The notes below the pieces were generated by a model. The model had not been told where the DNA came from. It saw nothing but the letters and a program-made list of their open reading frames with translations, and made no database searches. Of a stretch of 64,000 nucleotides of DNA, positions 3,501 to 47,115 are shown piece after piece. Numbering within the stretch: the first letter of the stretch is position 1; the number at the start of each line of letters is the position of its first letter. The translations under genes and the position numbers were made by a program. Source of the stretch: Paenibacillus sp. BIHB 4019 (GTDB lineage: Bacteria > Bacillota > Bacilli > Paenibacillales > Paenibacillaceae); assembly GCF_002741035.1 (NCBI RefSeq), contig NZ_CP016808.1:2790001-2854000 (forward strand), written 5' to 3'.

Positions 3501-3581
3501 GATGTTTTTAACATACTCGTTCCTCCAATTTATCCAGTAAAGTGCGCCCGATTTTCCATGTTGCTTGTAGGTTCGATTGTG

Positions 3582-3612
3582 TATAATGGCATAGCAGTGA
3601 GAATTGCTATCA
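3582..3612 (+). promoter_or_regulatory. -10 box and Fur box upstream of the siderophore-binding lipoprotein gene
   Basis: TATAAT at 3582-3587 is a strong -10 candidate; its -35 is weak (TTGCTT at 3561, 15-base spacing). TGAGAATTGCTATCA at 3598-3612 fits the 7-1-7 Fur box TGATAATnATTATCA with three mismatches and would sit just after the start of transcription, so iron-replete Fur would block this promoter. The assignment is by pattern only. Confidence 0.6.
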
Positions 3613-4653: not shown

Positions 4654-4670
4654 ACGAATAGCTGGCAATG

Positions 4671-4704
4671 AAGCTTTCCTGATTCAAGGGGAAAGCTTTT
4701 TTTT
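4671..4704 (+). terminator. intrinsic terminator after the siderophore-binding protein gene
   Basis: AAGCTTTCC and GGAAAGCTT form a 9-bp stem followed by eight T. Confidence 0.85.
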
Positions 4705-4709
4705 ATAAG

Positions 4710-4797
4710 TATAGGAAAGGATATGGTTTTTCCATCCTTTCTGTATATTTCTATGCGAAACGGAAGCATAGCCGGCAAAGGACGGCTTCAGAAGTTT
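4710..4797 (+). repeat. degenerate copy of the 98-bp double-hairpin intergenic repeat
   Basis: TATAGGAAAGGATATGG and CCATCCTTTCTGTATA form a first hairpin. GAAACGGAAGC...GGCTTCAGAAGTTTAC then echoes the second hairpin of the repeat family seen at 7507-7718 and 31548-31644. It is the most diverged of the long copies, and its last bases supply the -35 of the next promoter. Confidence 0.55.
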
Positions 4798-4854
4798 ACG
4801 CTTGGGCATTTTTCCGCTACAATAAAATGATAGCATTTTTGAGAATGGTTATCA
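4795..4854 (+). promoter_or_regulatory. sigma-A promoter with Fur box upstream of the AraC-type regulator
   Basis: TTTACG (4795-4800) and TACAAT (4818-4823) are separated by 17 bases. TGAGAATGGTTATCA at 4840-4854 is a 7-1-7 Fur box with two mismatches, placed just downstream of the expected transcription start. The Fur box position argues against translation starting at the upstream ATG at 4827. Confidence 0.7.
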
Positions 4855-4877
4855 TAATGGGAGGGGACCAAGGTCAA

Positions 4878-6494: not shown

Positions 6495-6526
6495 TGAGTA
6501 AAACGATATATAGAAAAGGGTTGATC

Positions 6527-7267
6527 ATGATGTGGCCTGAAACGATAGACGTGCTGCTTAATCACCGCTCCATACGGAAATTCAAATCGAACCCCATTCC
6601 ACAGCCGACACTGGCAAAAATAATAGAGGCGGCGCAGCAGGCATCTACCTCAAGCAGTATGCAGTGCTTCACGGTAATCAACGTGAGCAACCAAGATAAG
6701 CGGAAACAGCTGGCCGAGCTTTCCGGCAACCAGGCGTATATTGAGGAATGCCCGGTATTTCTCGTCTGGTGCGCGGATCTGTTCCGTTATGAACAGGCAG
6801 CCAAGCTTCATTTTGAGGGCGATATGACGAGCACGGTTGAAAATTTTATCGTTGCCACAGTCGATACTGCGCTGGCAGCTCAAAATGCAGCAATCGCGGC
6901 AGAGTCGCTTGGCTACGGAATTGTCTATATTGGCGGTATCCGCAACAATCCGCAGGAGGTTTCAACGCTATTAGGGCTGCCATCGCATGTGTACCCCGTA
7001 TTCGGAATGTGCATGGGGGAGCCGGATCAAGCGCCGCTGACCCGCCCAAGACTGCCGCAGCAGGCGATTTTGCATGAAGACCGCTATGACCAGGAAGCAG
7101 TGGAAAGCGGCATTCGGGAGTATGACGAGACGATTAGGCAGTATATGCTGGAGCGGTCTGAAGGTAAGCTGAATACGAGCTGGTCCGAATCAATGGCGGC
7201 CAAAATCAATCATCCGCGTCTGCATATGGGCGAGTTTCTCCGCAGCAAAGGCTTCTTGCAACAATAA
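6527..7267 (+). CDS. NfsA/Frp-type NADPH-dependent flavin nitroreductase
   Basis: A 246-residue nitroreductase-fold flavoprotein. The N-terminal FMN-binding signature NHRSIRKFKSNPIPQ, the AAQQASTSSSMQ segment and the GIVYIGGIRNNP / GMCMGEPDQ segments are characteristic of the NfsA/FRP group of FMN enzymes that use NAD(P)H. ATG 6527 follows AAAAGGG with six bases of spacing, so it is preferred over the upstream ATG at 6494 that overlaps the previous stop. It is probably co-transcribed with the Fur-controlled regulator. A link to iron, for example reduction of ferric siderophores or supply of reduced flavin, is a guess from context; the substrate cannot be read from sequence. Confidence 0.88.
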   Translation: MMWPETIDVLLNHRSIRKFKSNPIPQPTLAKIIEAAQQASTSSSMQCFTVINVSNQDKRKQLAELSGNQAYIEECPVFLVWCADLFRYEQAAKLHFEGDMTSTVENFIVATVDTALAAQNAAIAAESLGYGIVYIGGIRNNPQEVSTLLGLPSHVYPVFGMCMGEPDQAPLTRPRLPQQAILHEDRYDQEAVESGIREYDETIRQYMLERSEGKLNTSWSESMAAKINHPRLHMGEFLRSKGFLQQ

Positions 7268-7333
7268 GAAGCCTTTAGGCGGGGTTTGGGCTGTGCGAAT
7301 TTATTTTAACCTTAACAATTGCTTTATTTTCAT

Positions 7334-7393
7334 TGACTTTATACGTGAGAACGATTATCATTAATTATTGAATGATACTGATAATAGTTATCA
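7334..7393 (+). promoter_or_regulatory. promoter with two Fur boxes upstream of the siderophore ATPase
   Basis: TTGACT (7334-7339) and TATCAT (7357-7362) are 17 bases apart. TGAGAACGATTATCA (7346-7360) overlaps the -10, and TGATAATAGTTATCA (7379-7393) lies just downstream. Both match the 7-1-7 Fur consensus closely (two and one mismatches). The only downstream gene is the ATPase starting at 7779, so the message would have a leader of about 400 bases that includes the tandem repeat. Confidence 0.75.
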
Positions 7394-7506
7394 TGTTTAA
7401 TGAATGATAAGTCGTGTGTTTTTAAAATATAAGCATTTATAAGTTTCACACTTATAGCGGGCTTATATTTCAACGCGAAACGGTAGCTTTGCCGCTATGG
7501 ACGGCG

Positions 7507-7718
7507 ACAGCCGTTTCACCTTGAAATATAGGAAAGGGTAACCTAACACTATCCTTTCTCTATATTTTTCGGAATGAAACGCGCCGCGCTGCCAGAGGAT
7601 AGCGACAGCCGTTTCACCTTGAAATATAGGAAAGGGTAACCTAACACTATCCTTTCTCTATATTTTTCGGAATGAAACGCGCCGCGCCGCCAGAGGATAG
7701 AGACAGCCGTTTCACCTT
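7507..7718 (+). repeat. tandem 98-bp intergenic repeat (two units plus a 16-bp remnant)
   Basis: Units 7507-7604 and 7605-7702 differ at only two positions I can see and are followed by 7703-7718, a third start (ACAGCCGTTTCACCTT). Each unit contains two potential hairpins: AAATATAGGAAAGG with TCCTTTCTCTATATTT, and GAAACG with CGTTTC around a GC-rich core. A more diverged copy lies directly upstream at about 7463-7506. Related copies are at 4710-4797 and 31548-31644, with a fragment at 30005-30029. No open frame covers the 510 bases between the neighbouring genes. Confidence 0.85.
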
Positions 7719-7778
7719 ATATAATAAAATAAGCAAAAAACCCGTATAAGCGGGCATCGGAAGGAGCGTGCATGTCAC

Positions 7779-8621
7779 ATGATTCGCCTCACAACATCGA
7801 ATCTCGACATTGCTTATGATGAACGGTTAATCGTTCAAGATCTGAATATTGCTATCCCACAAGGAAAAATTACTGCGTTGGTAGGGTCTAACGGTTCGGG
7901 TAAATCGACGATTTTGAAAACGATGGCTCGTCTGATGAATCCATCTGCAGGCAGCGTATTGCTGGACGGGAAGTCGATTCATAAGCAAGCGACGAAGGAA
8001 GTGGCGAAGCAGCTGGCGATTTTGCCGCAAAATCCGACTGCTCCAGATGGTCTGACTGTATCTGAGCTTGTATCGTATGGACGTTTTCCTTATCAGAAGG
8101 GCTTCGGCTCTGTGAGCAAGGATGACCGTAAAATTATTCAATGGGCGATTGAAGCGACAGGAATGGTTGATTTTGCAGACCGTCCGGTTGACCAGCTGTC
8201 AGGCGGCCAACGCCAGCGTGCCTGGATCGCGATGTCTTTGGCGCAAGAAACGGATATTTTATTTTTGGATGAGCCAACCACGTTCCTTGATATGGCGCAT
8301 CAGCTCGAAGTACTGCATTTGCTTGAGAAGCTTAACGAGGTTAATAACCGGACGGTCGTTATGGTTGTCCATGACTTGAACCACGCTTCGCGTTATGCGC
8401 ATCACATGATTGCGATTAAAAAAGGCAGTGTCGTTGGCGAAGGCTCGCCGCAACAGGTTATGACACCGGAGATTTTGCGCGAGGTGTTTAACATTGAAGC
8501 GGATATTATGCCTGATCCGCGTACCGGTGTTCCGCTGTGCATGCCTTATGCGCTCGCAGGCGAATCCGCTGCATCCAAAGTTATCGTTGATAAGAAACCG
8601 GCATTAGCTGGAGTCGTATAG
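7779..8621 (+). CDS. iron-siderophore ABC transporter ATP-binding protein (FecE/YusV-like)
   Basis: A 280-residue ABC ATPase. Walker A is GSNGSGKST near residue 37, the signature is LSGGQRQR near residue 141, Walker B is [12 protein letters not shown], and the H-loop is VVHDLNH. The family drives import of ferric siderophores together with FecCD-type permeases. No permease is nearby, which recalls the Bacillus YusV arrangement in which one orphan ATPase energises several Fur-controlled importers; that role is inferred. The start follows GGAAGGAG by 12 bases; an out-of-frame ATG at 7772 lies closer to that site. Transcription probably begins at the Fur-controlled promoter 400 bases upstream. 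Confidence 0.92.
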
Positions 8622-8627
8622 TTGGTC

Positions 8628-8665
8628 ATCAAACCGTGCTGGAAGGAGCACGGTTTGATGTTTTT
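8628..8665 (+). terminator. intrinsic terminator after the ATPase gene
   Basis: ATCAAACCGTGCT and AGCACGGTTTGAT form a perfect 13-bp stem around GGAAGG, followed by a T-rich tail. Confidence 0.85.
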
Positions 8666-8817
8666 ATGGCGAGACATGCAGCGAAGGAAAGCTTAACACG
8701 AGGAAAAAAGTTTTTTTTGAAAAAAAGCAAATAACAGTTGCAATTCCCTCCGCAACATGATATATTATTACTTGTCGCCGCGATGAAATACTTAAGAAAC
8801 ACAGGCGAAAATATAAT

Positions 8818-8892
8818 GCGGACGTGGCTCAGTGGTAGAGCATCGCCTTGCCAAGGCGAGGGTCGCGAGTTCGAATCTCGTCGTCCGCTCCA
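8818..8892 (+). tRNA. tRNA-Gly (anticodon GCC)
   Basis: Acceptor GCGGACG pairs with CGTCCGC. Anticodon stem TCGCC/GGCGA encloses TTGCCAA, giving GCC. CCA is encoded. First gene of a four-tRNA cluster. Confidence 0.97.
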
Positions 8893-8898
8893 TATTGT

Positions 8899-8975
8899 GT
8901 GCCCTTAGCTCAGCTGGATAGAGCGTTTGACTACGAATCAAAAGGCCAGGAGTTCGAATCTCTTAGGGCACGCCA
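8899..8975 (+). tRNA. tRNA-Arg (anticodon ACG)
   Basis: Acceptor GTGCCCT pairs with AGGGCAC. The anticodon loop CTACGAA gives ACG, which is normally deaminated to ICG. CCA is encoded. Confidence 0.97.
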
Positions 8976-8999
8976 TTTCTTTACAAAAGAATCGTCTGT

Positions 9000-9076
9000 C
9001 GGGACGTAGCTCAGCTTGGTAGAGCACCTGGTTTGGGACCAGGGGGTCGCATGTTCAAATCGTGTCGTCCCGACCA
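9000..9076 (+). tRNA. tRNA-Pro (anticodon TGG)
   Basis: Acceptor CGGGACG pairs with CGTCCCG. Anticodon stem CCTGG/CCAGG encloses TTTGGGA, giving TGG. CCA is encoded. Confidence 0.97.
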
Positions 9077-9082
9077 TTATTT

Positions 9083-9153
9083 GCGGGTGTAGTTCAATGG
9101 TAGAACTTTAGCCTTCCAAGCTAATAGCGTGGGTTCGATTCCCATCACCCGCT
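9083..9153 (+). tRNA. tRNA-Gly (anticodon TCC), CCA not encoded
   Basis: Acceptor GCGGGTG pairs with CACCCGC. Anticodon stem TTAGC/GCTAA encloses CTTCCAA, giving TCC. The base after the discriminator T is TAA rather than CCA, so the 3' end must be completed by CCA-adding enzyme, unlike the other nine tRNAs in this window. Confidence 0.95.
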
Positions 9154-9172
9154 TAACGAAGAGAAAGACTTG

Positions 9173-9202
9173 AAACCCTTGTGCAGCAAGGGTTTTTTTT
9201 TT
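9173..9202 (+). terminator. intrinsic terminator of the second tRNA cluster
   Basis: AAACCCTTG and CAAGGGTTT enclose a 5-base loop and are followed by a long T run. Confidence 0.85.
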
Positions 9203-9301
9203 TTGCCATTTTTTCGACATTCGGCAGAGTTCTTTTGAGTAAGGGGCAGATCAAGGGGCAAACTTAAGCTTTTGTGGTTTTAATGCCTCTAATTACGAAG
9301 T

Positions 9302-9330
9302 AAGCCTTGCGGCATGCAAGGCTTTTTTTT
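9302..9330 (+). terminator. second intrinsic terminator between tRNAs and the hypothetical gene
   Basis: AAGCCTTGC and GCAAGGCTT enclose GGCAT and precede eight T. It stands alone about 100 bases after the tRNA terminator, with no gene between the two, so it may be a backup or the remains of a lost gene. Confidence 0.8.
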
Positions 9331-9462
9331 ATGCGATATTTTCGATCCATTATTAGGTCGCAGCGTGGGATTGTCATTATTTGTAGAAAAGTGGAGGTAA
9401 AGAGCGGAGCAATGTTGTATAATTTGTTAATTACATACTTGAAGCGAAGGGAATGATTGTTA

Positions 9463-9984
9463 ATGGTAAAAGCGATTGTAAGTTTAGTTGATGGATTGAA
9501 TTTGAAGGACCCAGAGGCGCAATTGGAGATTACATTTGATAACGAATATTTAATTATCGTAGAGCATGCTTATAAAGGCTTTAAAAGAAATGTGGAAAAC
9601 ACATTCAAAATTCCATTGGCTAACTTTCTTGAATCAACGCTGACAACAGACAAGGACATGGGAGAGGTTCAAAAAAGTGTAATCGGCCGTGGAATTGTCG
9701 GTGGACTTATTTTTGGTCCAGCAGGGCTGGTTTTAGGCGGCATGTCGGGCATCGGTACAAAAAAAGGGAAAACGTTGCAAGTATATATCGTATCTTACGT
9801 ATCCTCTTCGGGAGACATTAATAATATTACCTTCAAAATGCCGCTTCCAATGGTTAGCGTTACCCGGAAATTTGACCAGCTATTAAAAAAGAACATGCAA
9901 TTGGTTCTAAGAAGCGAAGCTGCTTTGAAAATATTAGGTGATATGGCAGATCAAAAATCAGGTCCATCAGAAACGATATTATAA
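9463..9984 (+). CDS. hypothetical protein with a central glycine zipper
   Basis: I do not recognise this 173-residue protein. It is mostly beta-type sequence with a central glycine-rich hydrophobic segment (GRGIVGGLIFGPAGLVLGG, residues about 76-94) followed by basic residues. Such Gly-zipper segments occur in small membrane-associated proteins, so membrane contact is possible, but there is no signal peptide. The start is ATG 9463; TTG 9457 is also in frame, and AAGGG lies upstream of both. It is separated by 44 bases from the following methyltransferase and may share its transcript. Confidence 0.7.
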   Translation: MVKAIVSLVDGLNLKDPEAQLEITFDNEYLIIVEHAYKGFKRNVENTFKIPLANFLESTLTTDKDMGEVQKSVIGRGIVGGLIFGPAGLVLGGMSGIGTKKGKTLQVYIVSYVSSSGDINNITFKMPLPMVSVTRKFDQLLKKNMQLVLRSEAALKILGDMADQKSGPSETIL

Positions 9985-10968: not shown

Positions 10969-12741
10969 TTAATCAATCGGGATCGCGATGTATATGCCAG
11001 TTCCCCAGCCAAGCTTGCTGCGGATGGTTAAGCCGAAGGGTTTGCCATAGGTAAGCTTCAATCTTTTTTGCGTATTAAACATGCCGATATGTTGGGATTG
11101 CTCCAGGCTGCTTTCCAGCTGGGTTCGCAAATAAGCGAGCCTTTCAGCCGTTACGCCTATGCCGTTGTCGACGACGGAGAGCAGCAGCCGCGCACCGGAC
11201 ACCCGTGCTTTTACCCGGATTTGGCCAAAGCTGTCCTTTTCTTTTATGCCATGATAAAGGCTGTTTTCAATGAGCGGCTGGAAGGTCAGCTTAAGCACAT
11301 GATATTTGAGCGCTTTGTCATCTACGTCCCAGCTGACATCAAATTTGTCCTTGTAGCGCGTGCGGAGAATGGCGATATAGGGCAGCGTCTGATTGATTTC
11401 TGTTTGCAGCGATACCATGCCTGAGCCGCCTTCGAGCGAATAGCGCAAAATATCGGATAAGTTCTCGATTATATCGGTCATATCATTAGGGCCACCGGTC
11501 AGCTTGCTCGCCTTCCAGTTGAGCGTCTCTAGCGTATTAAAGAGAAAATGGGGATTGATTTGCGCATGCAGCGCTTCGAATTCCAGTGTTTGCAGCAAAT
11601 ATTTTCGCTCGGACAGCTGTACCTTTAAGAAATTATGCTCGATGAAATGATTAAGCGTATTTTGCAAAATGTAGCCAAAAACATCCTTAGAGTAACGAGG
11701 CAGAGGCGGAAGCGGGCGGCCGCTCTTGGCGAAATCCAAAATCGTGACAATCGCCTTCAGATTGCTGTAGTTTTTACGAGTCAGCCAGTAGGCCAGCATA
11801 GTGCCGATTGCGAACGAAATGATCAGCAGCACCAATGTAGTCAGCTTGAGCCCATTCGGAATGACATATAAGGAGTCGCTAGGCACGCTAGAGAGAAAGG
11901 TCCATTGATATTTTGCGGAAGCCAGCTTGTTCAGCACCTGCGTTTCGCCATTGATCTTCATGGAGAAGAATGAGCTGTCTGTCCGGTAAATCGTCTCGGC
12001 ATCTTCGGCGGTCAGCTTATAGTCCGGATGATTGCGAAAAATAACGTTATTGTCACGGTCCAAAATAAAGATGCTTTGCCCTTGCAGCGTATCCAGCTCG
12101 TTTAAGCTTTGCGTAATGTAATCAGGCTTAACATTGAGGACAATGATGCCATCGTTGTCGGCAGCTACAGAAATGCGGCGGAACATCGTAATGACATTCG
12201 TCTGCACGGTGGACTGGCCAGTTGTTGGACGGATGACGGGCCGGCTTTCTGCCCACATCAGCTCATCCAAAGGGTGGCTTTGATAGCTGCTGTACCAGTC
12301 CGAATCGTAAAAGTCATTCAGCTCGACCAGTCCGCCAGTCGTTGAGGAAATAAACCGCTTGCGGTCATTATTTAAATAAATATAAATCGAATCAATATAG
12401 GGCTTGCCGATGGACGGCGAATCGATAAAATTTTTGAGCGAGGCAAGCTGATCGTAATCGACGGGCTCGGGAAATTCTTTGGTCATCATATTTTTTAAAT
12501 TCGTAAATTGAAGCGCGCTGGCGACAATATGCAGATTCAGCGTATCCAGCTCGTTAAAGATCAGCTCGATATTGCCTTTCGTCTGCTTCAGCAGATTCAT
12601 ATTGTTATTGTTGATTTCCTTCGTTATATATTGCGAAATGAGGAACGTGGACAATGTGCCAAGCACCAGCAGCGGTACAAGCATTGGGATAAGAAAAGTA
12701 AGCAGATTGCGGGCGAAAAATTTAAAATACACCTTGGTCAT
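10969..12741 (-). CDS. YesM-type sensor histidine kinase
   Basis: A 590-residue membrane kinase. A first membrane segment near residues 12-35 and a second near 297-317 enclose an extracellular sensor region. A HAMP-like linker leads to the His_kinase motif QINPHFLFNTLETLNW (phospho-acceptor His about residue 397) and an HATPase domain with VDNGIGVT. This is the YesM/LytS-like class that usually senses sugars together with an Lpl-type transporter. The gene shares ATGA (12738-12741) with the upstream response regulator, so the two are translationally coupled. No binding protein or permease is adjacent, so the signal is unknown. Its 3' end faces the methyltransferase gene. Confidence 0.92.
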   Translation of the reverse strand: MTKVYFKFFARNLLTFLIPMLVPLLVLGTLSTFLISQYITKEINNNNMNLLKQTKGNIELIFNELDTLNLHIVASALQFTNLKNMMTKEFPEPVDYDQLASLKNFIDSPSIGKPYIDSIYIYLNNDRKRFISSTTGGLVELNDFYDSDWYSSYQSHPLDELMWAESRPVIRPTTGQSTVQTNVITMFRRISVAADNDGIIVLNVKPDYITQSLNELDTLQGQSIFILDRDNNVIFRNHPDYKLTAEDAETIYRTDSSFFSMKINGETQVLNKLASAKYQWTFLSSVPSDSLYVIPNGLKLTTLVLLIISFAIGTMLAYWLTRKNYSNLKAIVTILDFAKSGRPLPPLPRYSKDVFGYILQNTLNHFIEHNFLKVQLSERKYLLQTLEFEALHAQINPHFLFNTLETLNWKASKLTGGPNDMTDIIENLSDILRYSLEGGSGMVSLQTEINQTLPYIAILRTRYKDKFDVSWDVDDKALKYHVLKLTFQPLIENSLYHGIKEKDSFGQIRVKARVSGARLLLSVVDNGIGVTAERLAYLRTQLESSLEQSQHIGMFNTQKRLKLTYGKPFGLTIRSKLGWGTGIYIAIPID

Positions 12742-36327: not shown

Positions 36328-38160
36328 ATGTGTGGAATTGTAGGATATATTGGTAAACGTGACTCGCAGGCGATTTTGATCGAAGGGCTGAAAAAGCTGG
36401 AGTACCGCGGCTATGACTCGGCAGGTATTGCTGTATTCACAGACAACGGTCTTGAAGTTTCGAAAGCAAAAGGACGTCTTGCTAATCTTGAAGGCAAGCT
36501 GCAAGGCGAGCCATTGCACGGTTCCGTCGGCATTGGGCATACGCGCTGGGCAACACACGGCAAGCCATCCGATGTGAACTCTCATCCGCATACGGACAAT
36601 TCCGCTAAATTTTCGGTCGTTCACAATGGCATCATTGAGAATTACCTGGATTTGAAAGACGAGCTGACTGCGAAAGGCCATGTATTCGTATCGGAGACGG
36701 ATACAGAAGTGATCTCGCATCTCGTAGCTGATGAGTATGATGGCAACATCATTGAAGCAGTGCAGCGTGCGGTAAAACGTATGCGCGGAGCGTTCGCGCT
36801 TGGCGTATTGACGGAATTTGAACCGGAGAAGCTGGTAGCGGTTCGTTTTGCAAGCCCGCTCGTCATCGGCGTAGGCGAAGGCGAAAACTTCATCGGCTCG
36901 GATATTCCGGCGATTTTGGAGCATACGCGTGACGTTTATATTTTAGACGACGGCGAAATGGCTATTTTGACACGTGATGGTGTCGAATTGATGACGACAG
37001 AAGGCGCGGCTATTTCCAAGGAAATATTCCATGTCGATTGGGATCTGGTAACCGCAGAAAAAGCCGGATTTGATCATTTTATGCTGAAAGAAATTTATGA
37101 GCAGCCGAAAGCATACCGCGACACGATGCTGGGCCGCGTTGCTGACGATGGCAAATCGGTACAGCTGTCTGAGCTGACAATGACGAAGGATTATATTAAG
37201 ACAATTCGTAAAGTGCATATCGTAGCTTGCGGAACAGCTTACCATGCTGGCCTTGTTGGTAAAACGGTTATTGAGTCCATTGCCCGCATTCCGGTTGAAA
37301 CGGATGTCGCTTCGGAATATCGTTACCGCTCGCCGATTATTACGCCAGACACGCTCGTAATTGTAGTCAGCCAATCCGGTGAAACAGCGGATACGCTTGC
37401 TGCACTTCGTGAAGCGAAGCGCAATGGCGCTCGCGTATTGGCGATTACGAACGTAGTGGGCAGCTCGATTGCCCGCGAAGCGGATGATGTGCTGGTAACG
37501 TTGGCAGGACCGGAAATTGCGGTTGCTTCGACAAAAGCTTACACATCGCAGCTCGTAGTATTCTACCTGCTCAGCTTATATTTCGCAGATACGGTGGGAA
37601 CGAAAAATACAGCTGAGGTAAGCGAAATTCTTGCTGCTATGCAAGAGCTTCCTGAGCAAGTGGAAAGCATTTTGGAGCAAGCGCCGGTATTGCGCGATAT
37701 TGCTGAATCGATCTCCTCGCATCCAAGCCTGTTCTTTATCGGCCGCGGCATTGACTATCCAGTAGCGCTGGAAGGCTCGCTGAAGCTGAAAGAAATTTCG
37801 TATATTCACTCGGAAGCTTACCCGGCTGGCGAGCTGAAGCACGGTACGCTGGCATTGATCGAAGAGGGCGTTCCCGTTATCGCATTGGTGACGCAGGAAG
37901 AGCTGTACGAGAAAACACTGAGCAATATTAAAGAAGTGAAAGCGCGCGGCGCGAATGTGCTCGGTATTGGCAATGTTGGCTATGAAGAGGAAGCGAACAA
38001 GTCGGTTGATACACTGTTCTCGATTCCTCGCACACTGCCGATCCTGACTCCAGCACTGTCCGTTGTGCCACTGCAATTGATCTCCTACTATGCTTCGCTT
38101 GCGCTCGGGCATGATGTTGATAAACCGAGAAATTTGGCGAAGAGTGTTACGGTGGAGTAG
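36328..38160 (+). CDS. glmS: glutamine-fructose-6-phosphate aminotransferase
   Basis: A 610-residue enzyme that makes glucosamine-6-phosphate from fructose-6-phosphate and glutamine, the first step to UDP-GlcNAc. The N-terminal Cys nucleophile follows the start Met (MCGIVGYIGKRDSQ), with RWATHGKPSDVNSHPH in the glutaminase domain. Two SIS isomerase domains follow (VSQSGETADTLAALREAK; SEAYPAGELKHGTLALI). The C-terminus DVDKPRNLAKSVTVE is the conserved sequence whose DNA is recognised by TnsD in Tn7 insertion. The message is controlled by the ribozyme upstream. AACGGAGG precedes the ATG. Confidence 0.98.
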   Translation: MCGIVGYIGKRDSQAILIEGLKKLEYRGYDSAGIAVFTDNGLEVSKAKGRLANLEGKLQGEPLHGSVGIGHTRWATHGKPSDVNSHPHTDNSAKFSVVHNGIIENYLDLKDELTAKGHVFVSETDTEVISHLVADEYDGNIIEAVQRAVKRMRGAFALGVLTEFEPEKLVAVRFASPLVIGVGEGENFIGSDIPAILEHTRDVYILDDGEMAILTRDGVELMTTEGAAISKEIFHVDWDLVTAEKAGFDHFMLKEIYEQPKAYRDTMLGRVADDGKSVQLSELTMTKDYIKTIRKVHIVACGTAYHAGLVGKTVIESIARIPVETDVASEYRYRSPIITPDTLVIVVSQSGETADTLAALREAKRNGARVLAITNVVGSSIAREADDVLVTLAGPEIAVASTKAYTSQLVVFYLLSLYFADTVGTKNTAEVSEILAAMQELPEQVESILEQAPVLRDIAESISSHPSLFFIGRGIDYPVALEGSLKLKEISYIHSEAYPAGELKHGTLALIEEGVPVIALVTQEELYEKTLSNIKEVKARGANVLGIGNVGYEEEANKSVDTLFSIPRTLPILTPALSVVPLQLISYYASLALGHDVDKPRNLAKSVTVE

Positions 38161-38251
38161 GGGAGAGTAATAAATTCCCCCTGTATAGAAAACAATTTTA
38201 GTCTCCACTTATCACAGAAAGTCCAACACTGATCACTTAAAGTTTGCCATT

Positions 38252-38300
38252 AAGCCGACGAACTCAGGTATTCACTCCTGAATTCCGTACGGCTTTTTCT
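38252..38300 (+). terminator. intrinsic terminator inside the right end of element A
   Basis: AAGCCG...CTCAGG and CCTGAATTCCGTACGGCTT pair, followed by five T. The internal ACTCAGGTATTCACTCCTG recurs with one change at 46609-46627 in the next element's end. It probably also terminates glmS transcripts. Confidence 0.75.
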
Positions 38301-38738
38301 TATTATTTCCCTTGTTTCCTAGCAGACAAGTGTTCTATAACTTTTGCTGAATCAAGTTTTTTGAGTTTCTACTTTGATTTTATACCTAAATTCCAGTAGT
38401 TCTACAATGATTCCTCTGCTTTTACGTCTAATTTATTTTGCTTTATTCACCTCGGCCTTTAATCTCTCAATGGAACAAACGCAATTAATAACTATCAAAA
38501 TTGGGTAGTTTTGAAATTCTATTCCCTCACCACAGTAGTTGCTAATTTTAAATTGGTCTACAATAAGTAGATAGTTTAAATATTTTCCTTTTCGTGCTTT
38601 TATAGTTGTATGGTCCTAATTTTTTGAAGTATTTTTTTAAAAAAAGAAGGATATTCTTGGTAATTGTCGAATTTCTACAGCTATCGTATAGTTCATTTTG
38701 CTTATGAAATAGTTTAGGGTTAGGTATAGATAGATTAG
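38301..38738. other. AT-rich gene-free stretch at the start of element A
   Basis: No open frame with a ribosome site was found. Base composition is markedly more AT-rich than glmS, consistent with foreign DNA. Confidence 0.4.
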
Positions 38739-38945
38739 ATTTATGAGTTAATCGAAGATGGTTATGAGTCTGATTATCTGGATTTCAAAGAAAGACATTA
38801 CAATAAAGACAAGAGTATGATTGAGGATATTATGGAAATGGCCAATTCCCGTCACTATGGAGATAAATATAATAAAGTGACATTTGAGGTGAGATTTCTG
38901 GAACAGAGTAAAGATGTAGTTCAAAAGTTAGTTCAACAAAAGTAG
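38739..38945 (+). pseudogene. remnant of an AlbA_2/Schlafen-type protein N-terminus
   Basis: A 68-residue frame without a proper start reads ELIEDGYESDYLDFKERHYN and then MIEDIMEMANSRHYGDKYNK, resembling the beginning of AlbA_2 (divergent AAA-4) proteins. The expected glycine-rich DNA-binding segment is missing, and the frame jumps to an unrelated-looking tail, consistent with an internal deletion. These proteins are common in defence islands. Similarity is judged from memory of the motif, so moderate confidence only. Confidence 0.45.
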
Positions 38946-39047: not shown

Positions 39048-39884
39048 ATGGAAATAATCTCAAACCCAGTGTTAATGGCAGCTATTGTGAGTAGTTCTAT
39101 TGCTTTGGTTAGTGGTCTAGCACAATCAATCATTTCGAATTCGAAAAAACAGAGAGAAGAAAAAATTTACTATGAGAAGACTCTTGCGGACAAAATGATA
39201 AGAGTCTACTCACCTTTATTAATGTTACTTAATAATAGAAAACGAGATGATTTAATGATAGATGCTGAAGTGGAATTAATTATACGACAAGATGGGCATC
39301 TGTTATCAATTAGCAGATTAGAAGAGTTTCAAGAAATTATTGAAATCGAAAGTCGGTTTAATAGCTTGAATAATCAAGAAAAATCTGAATATCAGTTTTT
39401 GCGAGAAAAGCTTGTCTTCGAATTTCGCAGTGAATATGCTGTATTGCATGATGCATATAACCGTGGTTTTCAAGCTTATCAAAAAAAATATTCATTACCC
39501 TTCAAAGAATGGCTGGCTTCAAGGGCTATAAGAACATTTGGTTTTAGTACGATTGCATTCTGGGTTTTATTTTTTGCTAGCGATACATATTCAAGTAGAT
39601 TGGTTCAGGGCGCAATGTTCATCTGGACAACTATCTCAATAGCAGTTACTTATATTTTTTTGACAGCAGCACTATCCTTCTTTGTTCAGATAAACAGAAA
39701 ATCAGCATCGAATCTGTTTGTGAGCAAAAATTATGCGACTGAAAAAGCAGAATACAAGTGTATAGCATGTGGGATAAGGGCTGAAAGACTAAAAAACCAA
39801 AGGCTTGGAGAATGCTTTAATACGCATAGATGGCCCCATAGGTTGAAGGGACATCTAGCTAGATTTGATTGGAAAAAGATGTAG
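39048..39884 (+). CDS. membrane protein with C-terminal zinc-knuckle-like motif, first gene of the defence operon
   Basis: I do not recognise a named family. The 278-residue chain has a hydrophobic N-terminus (residues about 8-28), a charged helical middle (30-160), and two further hydrophobic segments (about 164-180 and 187-214). The tail has CIACG, then a further Cys and His residues (ECFNTHRWPHRLKGH), a possible metal site. ATG 39048 follows AAAGGCAG. The next gene begins 51 bases downstream on the same strand, so it is probably co-transcribed with the OLD nuclease and helicase. Membrane proteins in such operons often act as effectors, but this is inference. Confidence 0.8.
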   Translation: MEIISNPVLMAAIVSSSIALVSGLAQSIISNSKKQREEKIYYEKTLADKMIRVYSPLLMLLNNRKRDDLMIDAEVELIIRQDGHLLSISRLEEFQEIIEIESRFNSLNNQEKSEYQFLREKLVFEFRSEYAVLHDAYNRGFQAYQKKYSLPFKEWLASRAIRTFGFSTIAFWVLFFASDTYSSRLVQGAMFIWTTISIAVTYIFLTAALSFFVQINRKSASNLFVSKNYATEKAEYKCIACGIRAERLKNQRLGECFNTHRWPHRLKGHLARFDWKKM

Positions 39885-39935
39885 AGAAATGAGAAGCCTT
39901 CAAATAATAAATTGATTGAAAAGGTGGTTATTGAA

Positions 39936-42239
39936 ATGCATATTAAGTATGTAGAAATTCAGAATTTCAGAAAATTAGTATCTTGCCGAGTAGAGTTTTC
40001 CGAAGATACCACTCTATTCGTAGGCGCAAATAATAGTGGGAAAACCTCCGCTATGGATGCTTTAAGAAAATTTTTAATCCGAAAGAACAAATTTACCGCA
40101 AATGATTTTACACTATCACATTGGGAAAAAATCAATGAAATTGGGCGTATGTGGGAGGAGGGGGATGATGATTTTGAACTTCCCTTGTCAGAGAGATGGT
40201 CGGAGTGCTTGCCCTCTTTAGATGTTTGGTTGCAAGTTAATGATACAGAAATACATCACGTATCGCATCTAATACCAACATTGGATTGGGAAGGTGGATT
40301 GCTTGGAGTACGTTTGAGACTAGAGCCAGGAAACTTTGAACAGTTATATAAAGAGTACCGTATCTCTAGAATAGCTGCCATTGAAACTATTAAGTCAGCT
40401 AATATATCTCAAATTAATGAAAGACCACTAAAATTATGGCCTAAAGATATGCATGACTTTCTTTCTAGGAAACTGGAGTCTCATTTTACTATCCAAGCAT
40501 ATATTTTGGATCCTTCAAAGTGTATAGAACCAACTAAGGGAATAGCTAATGCTCAAATAATACCTGAGGACCGTGGGCAAATTGATGGAGACCCGTTTAA
40601 AGGTCTTATTCTGATAAATATCATAAATGCGCAGCGAGGTTTTACTGATGTAGATACTGGAAAAGCTTCGGTGGAGTCGGGAGATTTTACTAATACAAAC
40701 GGAAATCTTTCATCTCAACTCAGAAGTTATTATAACCATCATTTAAACCCATCCGAGTATCCTGATTCATCAGATATTCAGGCGCTACAAGCAATAGAAA
40801 ATGCTCAGTATTCATTTGATGAGAAACTGCTTAAGGGGTTTGAGAACGCAAAAAAAGAATTGGAAAGCTTAGGTTATCCAGGTTTTAATGATCCTAAAAT
40901 AACTATTTCTACTAAGATACAGCCAATGGATGGGTTAAATCATAATTCTGCGGTTCGGTTCGAGCTTTTAGGAGGAAATGCTGAATCAATTAATATTCCA
41001 TTAAGTCTACCTGAACAATACAATGGATTAGGCTATCAAAACCTTATTTCAATGGTATTCAAATTAATGAGTTTTCGTGATGACTGGATGCAAGTTGGCA
41101 AAGTAGGTAAAAGAAAGTCTATCGATAAAGAGGACGTTATTCTTCCTCCAATACATTTGGTATTAATAGAGGAACCTGAAGCACATCTTCATGCACAGGT
41201 CCAACAAGTATTTATTAGAAAAGCTTATGACATACTAAATAAGCATGAAAATCTACGTAATCAAAAGTTGTTAAAGACTCAAATGGTTGTAAGTACCCAT
41301 TCAAGCCACATTGCTCATGAAATGAAATTCTCCAGTCTGCGCTATTTTAGAAGAAAACCAGCAGGAAGTCTTAATGAGGTGCCTACGTCAACGGTTGTGA
41401 ATCTTTCAGAAGTATTTGGTCCTGAGGAAGAAACAGACAAGTTTGTAACTCGATATTTAAAAACAACACATTGTGATTTGTTTTTCGCAGATGCGGCTAT
41501 CTTGGTAGAAGGACCTGCAGAGCGTATGTTAGTTCCTCATTTTATTAGACGTAACTTTAAAAAGCTTAATGAAAGCTATGTATCATTACTTGAGATTGGT
41601 GGAAGCCATGCACATAGATTAAGGCCACTTATTGAACACTTAGGTTTAACGAGTCTTATAATTACTGATTTGGATTCAATTAAGCCAAAGGGTAAGGGCA
41701 CTAATGCAATTCATCCTCGTAGGAGGCAAAAATTTCGAACTGGTAATAACACTTTGAAAACATGGGTGCCAGAGAAAGAAGAGATCGATTTATTATTAGA
41801 CATGGATGATGCAGGAAAAACAAAGTATTACGATGACTTTTTCTCTATTAGAGTTGCTTACCAATGCCCGGTTTTAGTTGAATTAAATGCGATATGCGGA
41901 AAAGAAGAAGCGCTGTCAAATACATTTGAAGATGCAATTGTATTCAATAATATATCACTTTTCAAAACTATCGAGGGCGATGGAATAATTAATAGCTTTA
42001 AAAATACAGTTAATAGAGCTTCTACTGCAACAGAGTTAGGACTTAGTATCTTTAACTTGTTAAAAAGTGTAAAAAAAGCTGAGTTTGCCCTAGATCTCTT
42101 ATTATTAAAAGAGAATGATTCACTTAATGTTCCTACTTATATTAATGAAGGACTTGTTTGGTTGCAAAACGAACTGCAAAAAAAACATCAAGATTTTGTG
42201 GTTCAAACAGTTGAGCAAAAAAATGAGGTGTTGATTTAA
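39936..42239 (+). CDS. OLD-family ATP-dependent nuclease (GajA-like): ABC-type ATPase plus TOPRIM
   Basis: A 767-residue protein. Residues 30-37 form the Walker A GANNSGKT; near residue 408 lies the Walker B VLIEEPEAHLHAQ, followed by VVSTHSSHIAHE, as in SMC/RecF-like ATPases. A C-terminal TOPRIM domain has the acidic ILVEGPAER (about 521-529) and ITDLDS (about 576-581) needed for metal-dependent DNA cleavage. This is the OLD layout shared by Gabija GajA, though longer than the prototype of about 580 residues. The UvrD-type gene follows with no gap, the hallmark of the GajA-GajB pair. ATG 39936 is chosen for its AAAAGGTGG site; TTG 39912 is upstream. Confidence 0.88.
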   Translation: MHIKYVEIQNFRKLVSCRVEFSEDTTLFVGANNSGKTSAMDALRKFLIRKNKFTANDFTLSHWEKINEIGRMWEEGDDDFELPLSERWSECLPSLDVWLQVNDTEIHHVSHLIPTLDWEGGLLGVRLRLEPGNFEQLYKEYRISRIAAIETIKSANISQINERPLKLWPKDMHDFLSRKLESHFTIQAYILDPSKCIEPTKGIANAQIIPEDRGQIDGDPFKGLILINIINAQRGFTDVDTGKASVESGDFTNTNGNLSSQLRSYYNHHLNPSEYPDSSDIQALQAIENAQYSFDEKLLKGFENAKKELESLGYPGFNDPKITISTKIQPMDGLNHNSAVRFELLGGNAESINIPLSLPEQYNGLGYQNLISMVFKLMSFRDDWMQVGKVGKRKSIDKEDVILPPIHLVLIEEPEAHLHAQVQQVFIRKAYDILNKHENLRNQKLLKTQMVVSTHSSHIAHEMKFSSLRYFRRKPAGSLNEVPTSTVVNLSEVFGPEEETDKFVTRYLKTTHCDLFFADAAILVEGPAERMLVPHFIRRNFKKLNESYVSLLEIGGSHAHRLRPLIEHLGLTSLIITDLDSIKPKGKGTNAIHPRRRQKFRTGNNTLKTWVPEKEEIDLLLDMDDAGKTKYYDDFFSIRVAYQCPVLVELNAICGKEEALSNTFEDAIVFNNISLFKTIEGDGIINSFKNTVNRASTATELGLSIFNLLKSVKKAEFALDLLLLKENDSLNVPTYINEGLVWLQNELQKKHQDFVVQTVEQKNEVLI

Positions 42240-44129
42240 ATGTCAATCGTAGATAAAAATAATGTTGATGATTATGTGGATGATGAGATATGCAGCTGTA
42301 TGAATTTGGATAGACCGAAGAGCTTTTTTTTGTTTGCAGGGGCTGGTTCCGGTAAAACTAAATCTTTGGTTACATCGCTTAATAGATTTCAGGAGAAAAA
42401 TTTTAATCGAATGAAATTAAGTGGCCAGCGTATTGCAATAATTACATTCACTAATGTAGCAAGTGAGGAGATTGAAAGACGTTTAGATTATAATCCATTA
42501 TTTATTGTCTCGACAATCCACAGTTTTATTTGGGAACTAATCAAGGATCACCAGCTTGACATAAAAAAATGGTTACATGATAATCTCAAAATACAAATTG
42601 AAGAACTACAAGAAAAACAAAGGAAAGGGAGTAAGGGAACAAAAACTGCGAATGATCGTATAAGTAACATTGAATATAAAACAAAGAGAATTCAAAAGCT
42701 AAATAGTATAACTAAATTCTCGTATAGTCCTAATGGGGAAAATAAGGGAGTAGATTCCTTAAACCACTCGGAAGTAATAAACATAGGAGTGTATTTTTTA
42801 ACTCAGAAACCATTATTGCAAAAAATCCTAATAAGAAAATTTCCTTTTTTATTGATTGATGAAAGCCAAGACACAAATACAAAACTAATGGATGCCTTTT
42901 TTAAAGTACAAAGCGATTACTCATCTGAGTTTGCTCTTGGGCTATTTGGTGATACTATGCAGAGGATTTACCTTGATGGGAAAGCGGATCTGGGAATGAA
43001 CTTACCAACAGATTGGGCGAAACCCATAAAAAAAATGAATCATCGTTCTCCTAATAGAATCATTAAATTAATTAATAAGATTCGTTCGGTAGTAGATGAT
43101 CAAGAGCAGTTACCTAGAACTGATGCCAGAGAAGGTTGTGTACGCTTGTTTATTTTTCCTAATGAAATTGATAAGAAAACTGCTGAAAATAAAGTAGTAA
43201 AACAAATGTTTGAAATTACAAAAGACTTGTCATGGGGTGAGAATTCAGATTATATTTCATTAATTCTTGAACATCATATGGCAGCAAGCAGAATAGGTTT
43301 TGAAAATATATTCAGTGCTTTAAACCCAGTCGATAAATTAAAAACAGGATTATGGGAAGGCTCGCTACCAGAACTAAAGTTCTTCACACAAATCATATTA
43401 CCAATAGCGATTGCAAGAGATAATAATGATCAATTTATAATAACCAGCATAGTGAAAAAATATTCACCGTTACTCATTAAAAAGACAATGCGTTCAAGTA
43501 CTAATCAACTTAAACAATTGAAACTAGCAAATGCTGCTATGAAAAAGTTGTTATCGTTGTGGGATGATAGAAAAGAACCAACGGGAAATGATATATTGCA
43601 ATGTGTTGCACAATCTAAATTGTTTGATATACCAGGGAGTTTAACTCCATTAATTATTCCAGAAACAATCCAGAAATGCAACGAGACTAATGAGTCTGTA
43701 TCTAATTCTGAAAAAGGTGCTGGTGATCCGGAACTGGATGCCTGGAGATTATGCTTAAGTTCTAATTTCAGTCAATTTAAAGCGTACGAATCGTATATAT
43801 CCGAACAAACAAATTTTAGAACACATCAAGGAGTAAAGGGTCTTGAATTTCCTAACGTTATGGTAATTATAGATGATCATGATTCACGGGGGAAAACGTT
43901 TAACTATGAAAAATTGTTTGGAGCTAAGGAGAGAACAGTCGATGAGATAAAAAATGAAAAAGAAGGTAGGGATAGTAGTATTAGCAGAACTCGTCGTCTC
44001 TTTTATGTCACATGTAGCAGAGCTGAAAAAAGCTTGGCTATTGTTGCTTACACAGCAGAACCAGAAAAGGTAAAGAAGCACGTATTACAAGAGGGGTGGT
44101 TTGGAGAGGATGAAATAGAGATTCTTTAA
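42240..44129 (+). CDS. UvrD/Rep-type superfamily 1 helicase (GajB-like)
   Basis: A 629-residue helicase with a complete motif set: AGAGSGKT (residues 33-40), ITFTNVASEEIERRL, DESQDT (about 207-212), LFGDTMQRIY, NHRSPNRI, HQGVKGLEF (about 528) and RRLFYVTCSRA (about 585). It is longer than prototypical GajB (about 490 residues). ATG starts at the base after the stop of the OLD nuclease, with GAGGTG upstream, so expression is coupled. In Gabija the helicase senses DNA ends and activates the nuclease; the same partnership is inferred here. Confidence 0.9.
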   Translation: MSIVDKNNVDDYVDDEICSCMNLDRPKSFFLFAGAGSGKTKSLVTSLNRFQEKNFNRMKLSGQRIAIITFTNVASEEIERRLDYNPLFIVSTIHSFIWELIKDHQLDIKKWLHDNLKIQIEELQEKQRKGSKGTKTANDRISNIEYKTKRIQKLNSITKFSYSPNGENKGVDSLNHSEVINIGVYFLTQKPLLQKILIRKFPFLLIDESQDTNTKLMDAFFKVQSDYSSEFALGLFGDTMQRIYLDGKADLGMNLPTDWAKPIKKMNHRSPNRIIKLINKIRSVVDDQEQLPRTDAREGCVRLFIFPNEIDKKTAENKVVKQMFEITKDLSWGENSDYISLILEHHMAASRIGFENIFSALNPVDKLKTGLWEGSLPELKFFTQIILPIAIARDNNDQFIITSIVKKYSPLLIKKTMRSSTNQLKQLKLANAAMKKLLSLWDDRKEPTGNDILQCVAQSKLFDIPGSLTPLIIPETIQKCNETNESVSNSEKGAGDPELDAWRLCLSSNFSQFKAYESYISEQTNFRTHQGVKGLEFPNVMVIIDDHDSRGKTFNYEKLFGAKERTVDEIKNEKEGRDSSISRTRRLFYVTCSRAEKSLAIVAYTAEPEKVKKHVLQEGWFGEDEIEIL

Positions 44130-44203
44130 ATGACATAGTTATTTTTTGCATATTCAAAATGGTGGAGGTACAATTTTCTTTATTGAAAAGTGAAGGTGAT
44201 AAT

Positions 44204-46249
44204 ATGCAGATGCCGTCGTATTTTGGTCCACAATTAATGGGAGGAATTCATAATTCAGCGGGCCTATCCTATCAAGATACATGTGCCTTATACAATTTCT
44301 TCACTTACTTAAATAAGGACGATGAGCTACTGAGCCTTGGAGTTGAAATGGTAAATGACTTTTCTATTCACAAAGAAGGGAATATAATAACTGCACAGGT
44401 AAAAAAACAAACATTATCCCTTAAAGATATGCTCAAAATTCTAGAGAAAACTCCCCTGAAGAGAAATGATACAATCCTGGTTGTTTGTGCCCAATTTGAT
44501 GATGAATTGCGCCAAATTATAAAGAAGAGAGAAAGATTCAGGTATGCCATGCAATCTGACTTAGATTCTGATTGGAAAGAAACGATAATTTCTGATTTTG
44601 AAGCGGAGTTGGTAAAAAAAGAAATTGATCCTAAAAGTAATTTATTCGTTAAAAGCGAATATGTTGAACTACCCGCAGATATGGCGCATATGGCTTTGTT
44701 CTTTGTAATAATGAAATGGCTTGAGAGAGAAAAACGTACAGTGGATATATCAGGCTTTATGAATAGCTTATCAGTATATATTCAGAAATTGCGAGAAACA
44801 AGCGGTTCACTTTCGTTAAAACAATTGAAAGAATTTGCAGAAGAACATTCTACAAAATCCTTGGTCACAGAAATTATAGAAACAGCGTATAAGTCCCAAT
44901 TCATTCAACCTACTGAGTTAATGTCTGTTTTAGGCGAAACAAAAGACGAGATTTATAGGCAATTAGAGAAAAGGATTCAAGAAGCGCAAGAGCATTTTAA
45001 TAATCAGGAATTTAGTGAATCTTTGGAAATATACTCAAGTTTAGAAACGATATTCCGAAAAAAACTATTGAAATTTCAATGTGCTATACTTCATGAGTTA
45101 TTAAATAATTATGACTGCGCAATAAAGTATTGCGATGAAATTATAAAAATGGATCCCACCCACTATGAAGCATATTTAATTAGAGGTTTGAGTTTGAAAG
45201 CTTTAAAGAGATTTGAAGAAGCTATGGAACAGTTTGAGTATTCACTATCATTAAAGGCTTCTGTTCTGGCACATTATAATTTGGGTTATATCTATTTCAC
45301 ATCTCAAAGTGTTGACTCTACTAAGAAAGCGATTGAGCACTTCAAATCGTGCCTTGAGATAGATAGTATGTTTAAATACGCGCATCTCAACCTAAGTATT
45401 GCCTATTTTCAAATGGGTATATATGGCGACTCTTTAAAGCATATAAACAAAGCTCTCGATATTGATCCAGAATCCTATGAAGCCCTAGCCCATAAAGGCG
45501 AACTTTACCGATTCTTTGGTTTATATGATGATGCAATAGATTATTTTGAACAATGCTTGACTAAACAAAAAGAAAATCAGCAGGCACTTTTTGGCTTAGC
45601 TCTTTGCTTTACGGAGAAAGGCTATCTCTCGGAAGCCGCTATCTATTATAAACGATTTTTCAAATTTCATTCAGATAAATTCTTTAAAAATGGTATTTCT
45701 AATTCAATTGGAAGAAAGGCCATAATTGTTGATTTAGGCTGGAAAAGAACCGTTTATGGACATTTTGAAGTCATTAAGGAAAATTTAATTTATGTTGATA
45801 TAGCTGGAGTGCAGTTAAAGGTTTCTCTCAGTGTAGCAAAGGATTATATTTTTATAGGCTGTGTTCAATTTAATGTTGAAACTAATACTATTATATACCC
45901 AACGGTTGGAAAGTTTATGGAGACGAAAGAAGACTTCCAGGCCTTGATATATAAAATTCAGGAAACCGCTCAACTCGAACAGTTTTTTGATAAACCACTT
46001 TTCGTAGACTTTAATCATAGTATTGAGATAAATATTGAAGAACGCGAAAAGTATGTACTAATAGAGATGTTTTTTTTCGATCAACCTCTAGTTGTTGGTA
46101 TTACAGACCAAAAGGGCGATGGTTTTAAGTCGTTTAAAGATTATTTTGAATTATACGGACAATGTCGTATACATTTTGAATGTGTTAAAACATCTGAAGT
46201 CTTTGTTATTGATGGCATTTCGAAAGTTATTATAAAGCCTCTTGTTTGA
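44204..46249 (+). CDS. PD-(D/E)XK-like nuclease domain fused to TPR repeats, last gene of the defence operon
   Basis: A 681-residue protein in three parts. Residues about 15-70 resemble the DUF4297/Cap4-type nuclease head: GLSYQDTCALYNFF, then GVEMVNDF (E48, D52) and QVK (65-67), which fit a D...(E/Q)XK metal site. Residues about 265-510 contain tetratricopeptide repeats (YDCAIKYCDEIIKMDPTHYE; YGDSLKHINKALDIDPESYE; YDDAIDYFEQCLTK). The last 150 residues are beta-rich and unrecognised. It follows the helicase by 74 bases. ATG 44204 is preceded by GAAGGTGAT; ATG 44159 is possible. The domain call is by eye and the function, perhaps a DNA-cleaving effector with a TPR sensor, is inferred. Confidence 0.8.
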   Translation: MQMPSYFGPQLMGGIHNSAGLSYQDTCALYNFFTYLNKDDELLSLGVEMVNDFSIHKEGNIITAQVKKQTLSLKDMLKILEKTPLKRNDTILVVCAQFDDELRQIIKKRERFRYAMQSDLDSDWKETIISDFEAELVKKEIDPKSNLFVKSEYVELPADMAHMALFFVIMKWLEREKRTVDISGFMNSLSVYIQKLRETSGSLSLKQLKEFAEEHSTKSLVTEIIETAYKSQFIQPTELMSVLGETKDEIYRQLEKRIQEAQEHFNNQEFSESLEIYSSLETIFRKKLLKFQCAILHELLNNYDCAIKYCDEIIKMDPTHYEAYLIRGLSLKALKRFEEAMEQFEYSLSLKASVLAHYNLGYIYFTSQSVDSTKKAIEHFKSCLEIDSMFKYAHLNLSIAYFQMGIYGDSLKHINKALDIDPESYEALAHKGELYRFFGLYDDAIDYFEQCLTKQKENQQALFGLALCFTEKGYLSEAAIYYKRFFKFHSDKFFKNGISNSIGRKAIIVDLGWKRTVYGHFEVIKENLIYVDIAGVQLKVSLSVAKDYIFIGCVQFNVETNTIIYPTVGKFMETKEDFQALIYKIQETAQLEQFFDKPLFVDFNHSIEINIEEREKYVLIEMFFFDQPLVVGITDQKGDGFKSFKDYFELYGQCRIHFECVKTSEVFVIDGISKVIIKPLV

Positions 46250-46526
46250 AGTAACAAAAATGGAAAAACAGTCTTCAAATTAACACTAGAGACATGCTTA
46301 TATTTTATAGGTAGTTTGAATTTTAATGTTATCCAACATTCAGGAGATCAGGGGTTCAAAATTTGAGCTGTTTGTGACATTGAAATCAAGATAACTGGTT
46401 TCCAACTTTCTTTACATGGTATTTTTTAGCGGTTTCAGACTTTCTTTTTTTCGTATTTATCAAGAGCCGCTGCAAACCCAGTAGTATCAATAATTTTGGT
46501 TCCAGACTTTTTTATCACCCGACACT

Positions 46527-46986
46527 TGTGTGAAAACCTCAAAAAGTTGACCTAAGAATTACAAAGTCGCATCAAAGCTTATAAAGTCGTATCGAAAAGC
46601 CGAGCGAAACTCAGGTATCCACTCCTGTTTTCCTCGGCTCTTTTCATAAATCAGGGAAGCGGGTCTAGGGAGAAGGGGGGATCTTAAACGCCTCAAATCC
46701 CTTGTTCTATCAAGCTTTACCTCAATTTCTTTCTCCAATTTTCACTCCGATGCCGTTGCCCTAATCCCTTTCTTTCCCTTGCTCTACCCTGCCTTTACTC
46801 CTGCTTTTTCAACTCGAATTTATTTACTTTTTTATCACGTTTTTTCTCCGATTTGTAGGACGACTTTATTTGCTCAGGGTGAAATAGGTGAGAAGAGAAA
46901 AGGGGCGTTAAAGGCAGGTGCGGCAAGGCTTTGAGGTGATTTGGTGGGGGAGGGGGCGTAACACGACTTTTTAACGATTGCACACA
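46527..46986 (+). mobile_element. 460-bp gene-free Tn7-like mini-element (element B)
   Basis: It begins TGTGTGAAAACC with TnsB-like AAAGT sites whose G lies at 20, 40 and 60 from the end, then a terminator that shares an 18/19-base core with that of element A. It ends ...TTGCACACA, with an inverted GACTTT site exactly at position 20 from that end and further ones at about 123 and 160. The interior contains a long imperfect inverted repeat (46777-46810 with 46897-46928) and strong strand asymmetry, pyrimidine-rich then purine-rich, but no gene. It lies two bases after element A. Confidence 0.55.
46598..46644 (+). terminator. intrinsic terminator inside the right end of element B
   Basis: AGCCGAG and CTCGGCT enclose CAGG/CCTG and precede TTTT. 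ACTCAGGTATCCACTCCTG is nearly identical to the core of the terminator at 38252. Confidence 0.7.
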
Positions 46987-46987
46987 T

Positions 46988-47115
46988 TGTGATTCATTAC
47001 AATAAAGTGTTGTTCTGAACAATAAAGTTTTGTTTTCTTTAAAATTAACACAATAAAGTCTTGTTTTCTTTCTAAATAGGGAGTTGCAAAACGGAAATTA
47101 AAATTTATGAATCAA
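46988..47115 (+). other. third Tn7-like right end (element C)
   Basis: TGT at 46988 is followed by ACAATAAAGT sites whose G falls at positions 20 and 40 (47007, 47027), and a third site ACAATAAAGTCTTG with G at 47058. ACAATAAAGTCTT is the same string as in the Tn7 right end as I recall it. A terminator comes next at 47116. I find no matching left end farther right, so the extent of this element, and whether it once included the arabinan locus, is unknown. Confidence 0.5.

Follow-up and report, generated by a model that had tools for sequence, protein, structure and literature searches.

A Gabija pair and a candidate nuclease-TPR defence gene, probably stacked as cargo of a decayed Tn7-like element beside glmS in Paenibacillus

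The prototype of Gabija is described as a 4:4 complex of GajA and GajB that degrades phage DNA (PMC10781630), and a 2025 preprint puts forward the proposal that the system targets linear DNA that RecBCD has not engaged (PMC12407980). Gabija is reported in 338 Tn7-like transposons, where it was counted via its OLD nuclease (PMC8649781), and Avs3 is presented as a nuclease that is activated by assembly (PMC11291478). Here we analyse a window of 64,000 nucleotides from Paenibacillus sp. BIHB 4019 (NZ_CP016808.1, positions 2,790,001 to 2,854,000; host genome of 7.25 Mb in a single contig), in which four open reading frames (ORFs) of the + strand, ORF1, GajA, GajB and ORF4, were found at 39048-46249, where an initial annotation had placed four co-directional genes. 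We consider it probable that these genes are the stacked cargo of a decayed Tn7-like element beside glmS, in which an ordinary GajAB pair is predicted to cut phage DNA, ORF4 constitutes a separate one-gene defence and ORF1 is a passenger. At the level of sequence, this reading is carried by the Gabija motifs, a Tn7-like right end, a left relic, a remnant of an AlbA_2 gene, the lack of a tns match in the window, the absence of the outer genes from the related Gabija loci read and the modular build of ORF4. The new Gabija architecture claimed at first would give way to a picture in which defence genes were stacked at attTn7 and stayed there once the transposase genes were lost. The Gabija pair is ordinary and already known; the novelty lies in ORF4, which is a worthwhile candidate.

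The Gabija pair and the layout of the locus

GajA (39936..42239, + strand), an OLD-type ATPase with a TOPRIM nuclease domain, is followed by GajB (42240..44129, + strand), a UvrD-like helicase of 629 amino acids (aa) whose first base comes directly after the GajA stop. Judged by its sequence, this middle pair is Gabija, in agreement with the gapless pairing recognised in the initial annotation: the PADLOC models PDLC00093 (1.8e-291) and PDLC00111 (1e-245) cover GajA and GajB over nearly their full length, Pfam detects an AAA_15 ATPase (6.1e-51) and an OLD-like TOPRIM (6e-19) in the former and a UvrD helicase (5.3e-17) in the latter, and the motifs GANNSGKTS, EEPEAH, VEGPAER and TDLDS of GajA are present, as are the helicase motifs of GajB. 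GajA counts 767 aa from ATG 39936, which lies behind a AAAAGGTGG-like ribosome site and is the more likely start compared with TTG 39912. Both proteins had been called longer than the prototypes, which holds for GajA with regard to its solved chains, of 575-675 aa; however, the best PADLOC models are similarly long (736 and 752 positions for GajA, 625 and 632 for GajB), so that these lengths are normal for the clade and protein length was ruled out as a sign of novelty. The kinship with solved structures is distant, window GajA matching 8u7i at 1.9e-7 and GajB matching no solved chain at 1e-5. The pair is predicted to block phages. We propose that GajA and GajB would assemble into the nuclease complex described for other Gabija systems and that this complex would cut invading phage DNA, the long clade presumably working like the prototype.

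The gene upstream, ORF1 (39048..39884, + strand), encodes a predicted membrane protein of 278 aa, with hydrophobic stretches at residues 3-25 and 185-213 and a C-terminal CxxC...C...H pattern that is kept in 6/7 family members in an alignment judged by eye, which bears out its first description as a membrane/zinc-knuckle protein. No Pfam family was found for it above cut-off. PADLOC, proposed at the outset as a check of each protein, matched GajA and GajB but neither ORF1 nor ORF4, even at E 1. Relatives of ORF1 are few: a single-sequence search of the protein database returns ORF1 itself only, and a profile (A2) adds two relatives, from P. pabuli and P. odorifer. The predicted structure, built from 3 sequences, has a mean predicted local distance difference test score (pLDDT) of 55, too poor for a fold search. 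Three of six ORF1 relatives stand near defence-type genes, namely a type I restriction-modification system (locus L040), a TIR protein with an integrase (L041) and Gabija (L042). ORF1 is likely a passenger, to which no role is assigned.

The four genes are separated by gaps of 51 bp (ORF1/GajA), 0 bp (GajA/GajB) and 74 (or 29) bp (GajB/ORF4), and their G+C content of 33-36% is below that of the window (46%) and of the upstream glmS (50%), which fits the expectation for acquired DNA. Given the short gaps, one shared transcript is possible. With respect to the single operon suggested at first, the common strand and the short gaps stand, whereas the promoter scan (41 found vs 37.9 expected) and the terminator scan (4 found vs 5.0 expected) gave numbers at chance level. 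The genes may be co-transcribed yet not form one machine.

Distribution of the four genes

Three separate searches of the family (394 genomes) found ORF1 in 8 genomes, GajA (1e-30) in 16 and ORF4 (1e-20) in 7, the own genome included; two rows among these are weak and were dropped from the locus counts given below (genome G330 for ORF1, at 5.6e-4 and not confirmed by the profile, and G273 for ORF4, where the match is a fragment of 65 residues). Apart from the own genome, only G237 appears on two lists, its distant GajA lying 0.95 Mb from an ORF4-like gene. At 1e-100, GajA has no match among 348 genomes of the phylum except that of the window itself. The loci of the GajA clade that were read amount to 21: one is chromosomal (L047, 57% identical), 12 come from plasmids (out of 41 records) and 8 from viral contigs (8/8 read), redundancy among them being kept. 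They were checked with profiles of ORF1, ORF4 and GajA and with the GajB sequence, and one (L127) shows no upstream side. GajB adjoins GajA in 21/21 (the frames being broken in L129 and L135), and both ORF1 and ORF4 are missing from every one of these related loci. Fourteen distant GajA loci (1e-35 to 1e-57) were left out of the counts; the four that were read (L048, L049, L056 and L057) have an adjacent GajB and no match to ORF1 or ORF4. On the side of the outer genes, Gabija is absent from 8/8 distinct ORF4-family loci, L117 and L118 being dropped as repeats of L050 and L051, and from 5/6 ORF1-family loci. A limited literature search, which is not proof of absence, found no report pairing Gabija with this gene set, no paper linking a Cap4 nuclease with TPR and none linking Cap4 plus TPR with Avs.

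A true four-gene Gabija variant, in which ORF1 would serve as sensor or anchor at the membrane, ORF4 would contribute another nuclease and both would act via the GajAB complex, would be in keeping with the single strand, the short gaps, the similarly low G+C of all four genes and an ORF1 relative lying 3.3 kb from another Gabija. It is nevertheless very unlikely in view of the outer genes missing at all related GajA loci, of the ORF4- and ORF1-family loci devoid of Gabija and of a GajA length usual for its clade. The initial annotation had considered such a variant, with dedicated sensor and effector, and had itself named absence of the outer genes from most homologous loci as an outcome speaking against it. 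This is what was found, and the evidence supports the alternative that it also offered, stacked systems. When it was examined whether the four genes stay together elsewhere, as had been suggested, they did not, and a conserved four-gene system was rejected, the outer genes occurring in 0/21 related GajA loci.

The nearest chromosomal Gabija relative (L047:12337-14700) stands beside an nSTAND3 protein that matches the PADLOC candidate PDC-S73 (1.3e-112), with recombinase genes upstream.

The Tn7-like setting downstream of glmS

The Tn7-like setting, absent from the initial annotation, was found in the present analysis. The four-gene block starts just downstream of glmS (36328..38160, + strand), which is the attTn7 target, with the insertion site on its downstream side; the assignment draws on the ORF, on matches in the genus, where a 286-residue C-terminal part is matched in 50/51 genomes, and on the presence of Tn7-like tns genes behind glmS in relatives. 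Comparison of glmS-downstream sequences side by side revealed a glmS-proximal relic of a Tn7-like end (38182..38196, + strand), the TGT of which falls on the exact base where the element of G326 starts, and the region of this left relic is matched at 78% in G336, at a distance of about 0.55 kb from glmS. Further on lies the remnant of a Schlafen AlbA_2 gene (38724..38870, + strand; 68.6% over 51 residues, E 6.8e-14), the counterpart of which (PF04326, 3.3e-16) follows the second TniQ gene (tnsD/tniQ) in the Tn7-like element of G372. Beyond ORF4, a Tn7-like right end was located (46396..46524, - strand), its repeated sites being degenerate: the terminal 27 bp of the G372 element recurs inverted at 46498-46524 with 2 mismatches (0.00 expected), and 130-bp homologues of about 46393-46531 are found 13-33 kb downstream of glmS in G350, G367, G369, G372 and G373 of the same genus. 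The adjoining stretch 46525..47080, to which no strand is assigned, is likely the footprint of a further Tn7-like insertion, as it contains a terminator-like copy (46608-46627) and 31-bp-spaced repeats (47019-47078).

Among 20 glmS-downstream regions of the genus, tnsABCD are present in three (G326, G372 and G353) and a TnsB-like gene in two (G356 and G358); in G068, of the same family, glmS is accompanied by tnsA, tnsC and tnsD, by a tnsB split in two and by a broken relative of ORF4. Ten reference Tns/TniQ proteins were compared with the window and gave no match at 1e-3, and since tnsA, B, C and D genes were not found there, we speak of a relic and not of a member of Tn7-like elements. We propose that at least two Tn7-like insertions took place here and that the locus is what remains of them after decay, their tns genes having been lost. 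The lost tns genes, the truncated AlbA_2 gene nearby and the ORF4 relatives in broken frames in G068 and Niallia circulans could also suggest a block made up entirely of inactive debris from a decayed element, a reading that is highly improbable with four full-length ORFs and with catalytic motifs present in GajA, GajB and ORF4.

Several further observations concern this region. A terminator-like sequence is present at 38261..38305 (+ strand), and its two copies (38261-38280 and 46608-46627) bracket the four genes, the 18-mer core occurring only twice genome-wide. In the own genome, a second copy of the right end (71%) lies about 30 kb further on, outside the window (L157, G000:C1:2866375-2866504), where it follows a LuxR/MalT-like gene of 854 aa, likewise in G350; because of this copy, the region downstream of glmS may contain several nested Tn7-like insertions. 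In G372 (L113, reverse complement 12204-12390), the left end of another element comes only a few bases behind the Tn7-like element at glmS, as a tandem insertion. In both G372 and G373, a Schlafen AlbA_2 gene, a gene for a 2,100-aa protein and one for a 240-aa protein stand in this order downstream of glmS (L113 reverse complement 860-8768; L108 reverse complement 1599-9474), and this gene set is possibly an uncatalogued defence module.

ORF4 and its relation to described systems

ORF4 (44204..46249, + strand) comprises 681 aa from 44204, a start that is more likely than 44159 because the database copy also has 681 aa. Its N-terminus (about 44240-44860, + strand) has the Cap4-like PD-(D/E)XK nuclease fold and the catalytic residues, according to alignment and structure model; the structural match to Cap4 stood at rank 29 in a second look and was not among the 50 matches listed by Foldseek. 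A TPR array detected by Pfam (about 44945-45679, + strand) follows, which confirms the PD-(D/E)XK-like TPR protein recognised at first, and then a C-terminal domain (about 45710-46246, + strand) that no structural match listed covers, the lists being filled by TPR rows; the three-part layout draws on the structure model, alignment and domain profiles. Members of the ORF4 family retain the TPR and C-terminal parts but have the nuclease part swapped, the 8 distinct loci dividing into five of Cap4 type and three of DUF4365 type. The seven nearest relatives in the protein database (P0003-P0009) are 45-84% identical. In genome contigs, the single-protein search gave no match and the ORF4 profile (A1) gave 8 loci, of which L116-L118 were matched across the protein and five in the TPR part only; against viral contigs, the ORF4 profile gave 35 pattern matches and zero relatives.

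We predict that ORF4 is a separate, uncatalogued one-gene defence, a compact nuclease-TPR protein lacking a PADLOC model; the exchange of nuclease domains in its family points to a design of effector plus sensor. It can be hypothesised that the TPR and C-terminal part would bind a phage component, that binding would assemble the nuclease domains in the manner of Avs3, and that the assembled nuclease would be switched on for unspecific DNA cutting. Tentatively, and with more doubt than confidence, ORF4 might found a family of one-protein immune sensors, in which a TPR and C-terminal recognition module is joined to interchangeable DNases (Cap4 or DUF4365) that destroy the DNA of the infected cell with no nucleoside triphosphatase (NTPase), cyclic-nucleotide signal or guide, like an Avs sensor minus its ATPase.

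The ORF4 relatives at L050:8392-10462 (G068) and L058:7968-10032 (Niallia circulans) are spread over several frames and are probably broken genes. The relative in G068 lies within a Tn7-like element at glmS, and two others are located on large Bacillaceae plasmids, which could suggest that ORF4 is a transposon or plasmid maintenance gene standing beside Gabija by chance. We consider this unlikely, as the nuclease is of defence-effector types and is exchanged on a constant TPR and C-terminal part, and as no match was found in the 20 glmS loci read in the genus or, by whole-genome search, in any other genome of the genus. In G260, a DUF4297-HerA pair, tested with PADLOC, is followed by a DUF4365-TPR gene, and a same-looking trio is found in G237 (L052:4378-9615, L053:4868-9934); the DUF4365-TPR gene may be a third component of the DUF4297-HerA system in these genomes.

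Against the reading of the four genes as stacked cargo, several points must be weighed. The gaps are short enough for a single transcript, and the ORF1 relative at L042 is followed, 3.3 kb downstream, by a Gabija that belongs to another clade; this locus also carries, upstream of the relative, a UvrD-type gene matching a GajB model. P0003-P0009 lie outside the loci read in context, and a pairing with Gabija is possible there. The left relic and the right end are not a matching pair and share no 5-bp duplication (CCCCC ahead of the former vs CTTGT behind the latter), whereas CTTTT flanks the element of G372 on both sides, so that no limits can be set for the element; in the window, the short Tn7-site pattern by itself occurs at chance (7 found vs 6.68 expected). 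Finally, the Pfam Cap4 profile (PF14130) matches 3/11 ORF4-family members, at best 6.8e-6, and does not match the window ORF4 itself.

Compared with described systems, the middle pair resembles Gabija in the immediate succession of the OLD-type ATPase-TOPRIM protein and the UvrD-like helicase, with PADLOC models matched over nearly the whole length; it differs in belonging to a long clade distant from the solved prototype and in being flanked by two unrelated genes. The block resembles Tn7-like defence cargo in its location beside glmS and its Tn7-like right end, although the window has neither a tns gene match nor paired ends. The Cap4 of the cyclic oligonucleotide-based antiphage signalling system (CBASS) carries a SAVED domain, whereas ORF4 has a TPR array in this position and no SAVED match, a CD-NTase elsewhere in the genome not having been searched for. 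In Avs3-type proteins, composed of a Cap4 nuclease, a STAND ATPase and a repeat sensor, the nuclease likewise precedes a repeat array, but ORF4 has no detected ATPase domain, no NTPase family (STAND included) being among its Pfam matches, and has an extra C-terminal domain. Unlike the short-Argonaute systems with DUF4365 nucleases, ORF4 has no Argonaute or APAZ match, while proteins with TPR and C-terminal parts of the ORF4 type bear DUF4365 at the same end. No HerA was found by Pfam or PADLOC among the four genes of the window, in contrast to DUF4297-HerA, a system that nonetheless has a nuclease of the Cap4-like family and that, in G260, adjoins a DUF4365-TPR relative of ORF4.
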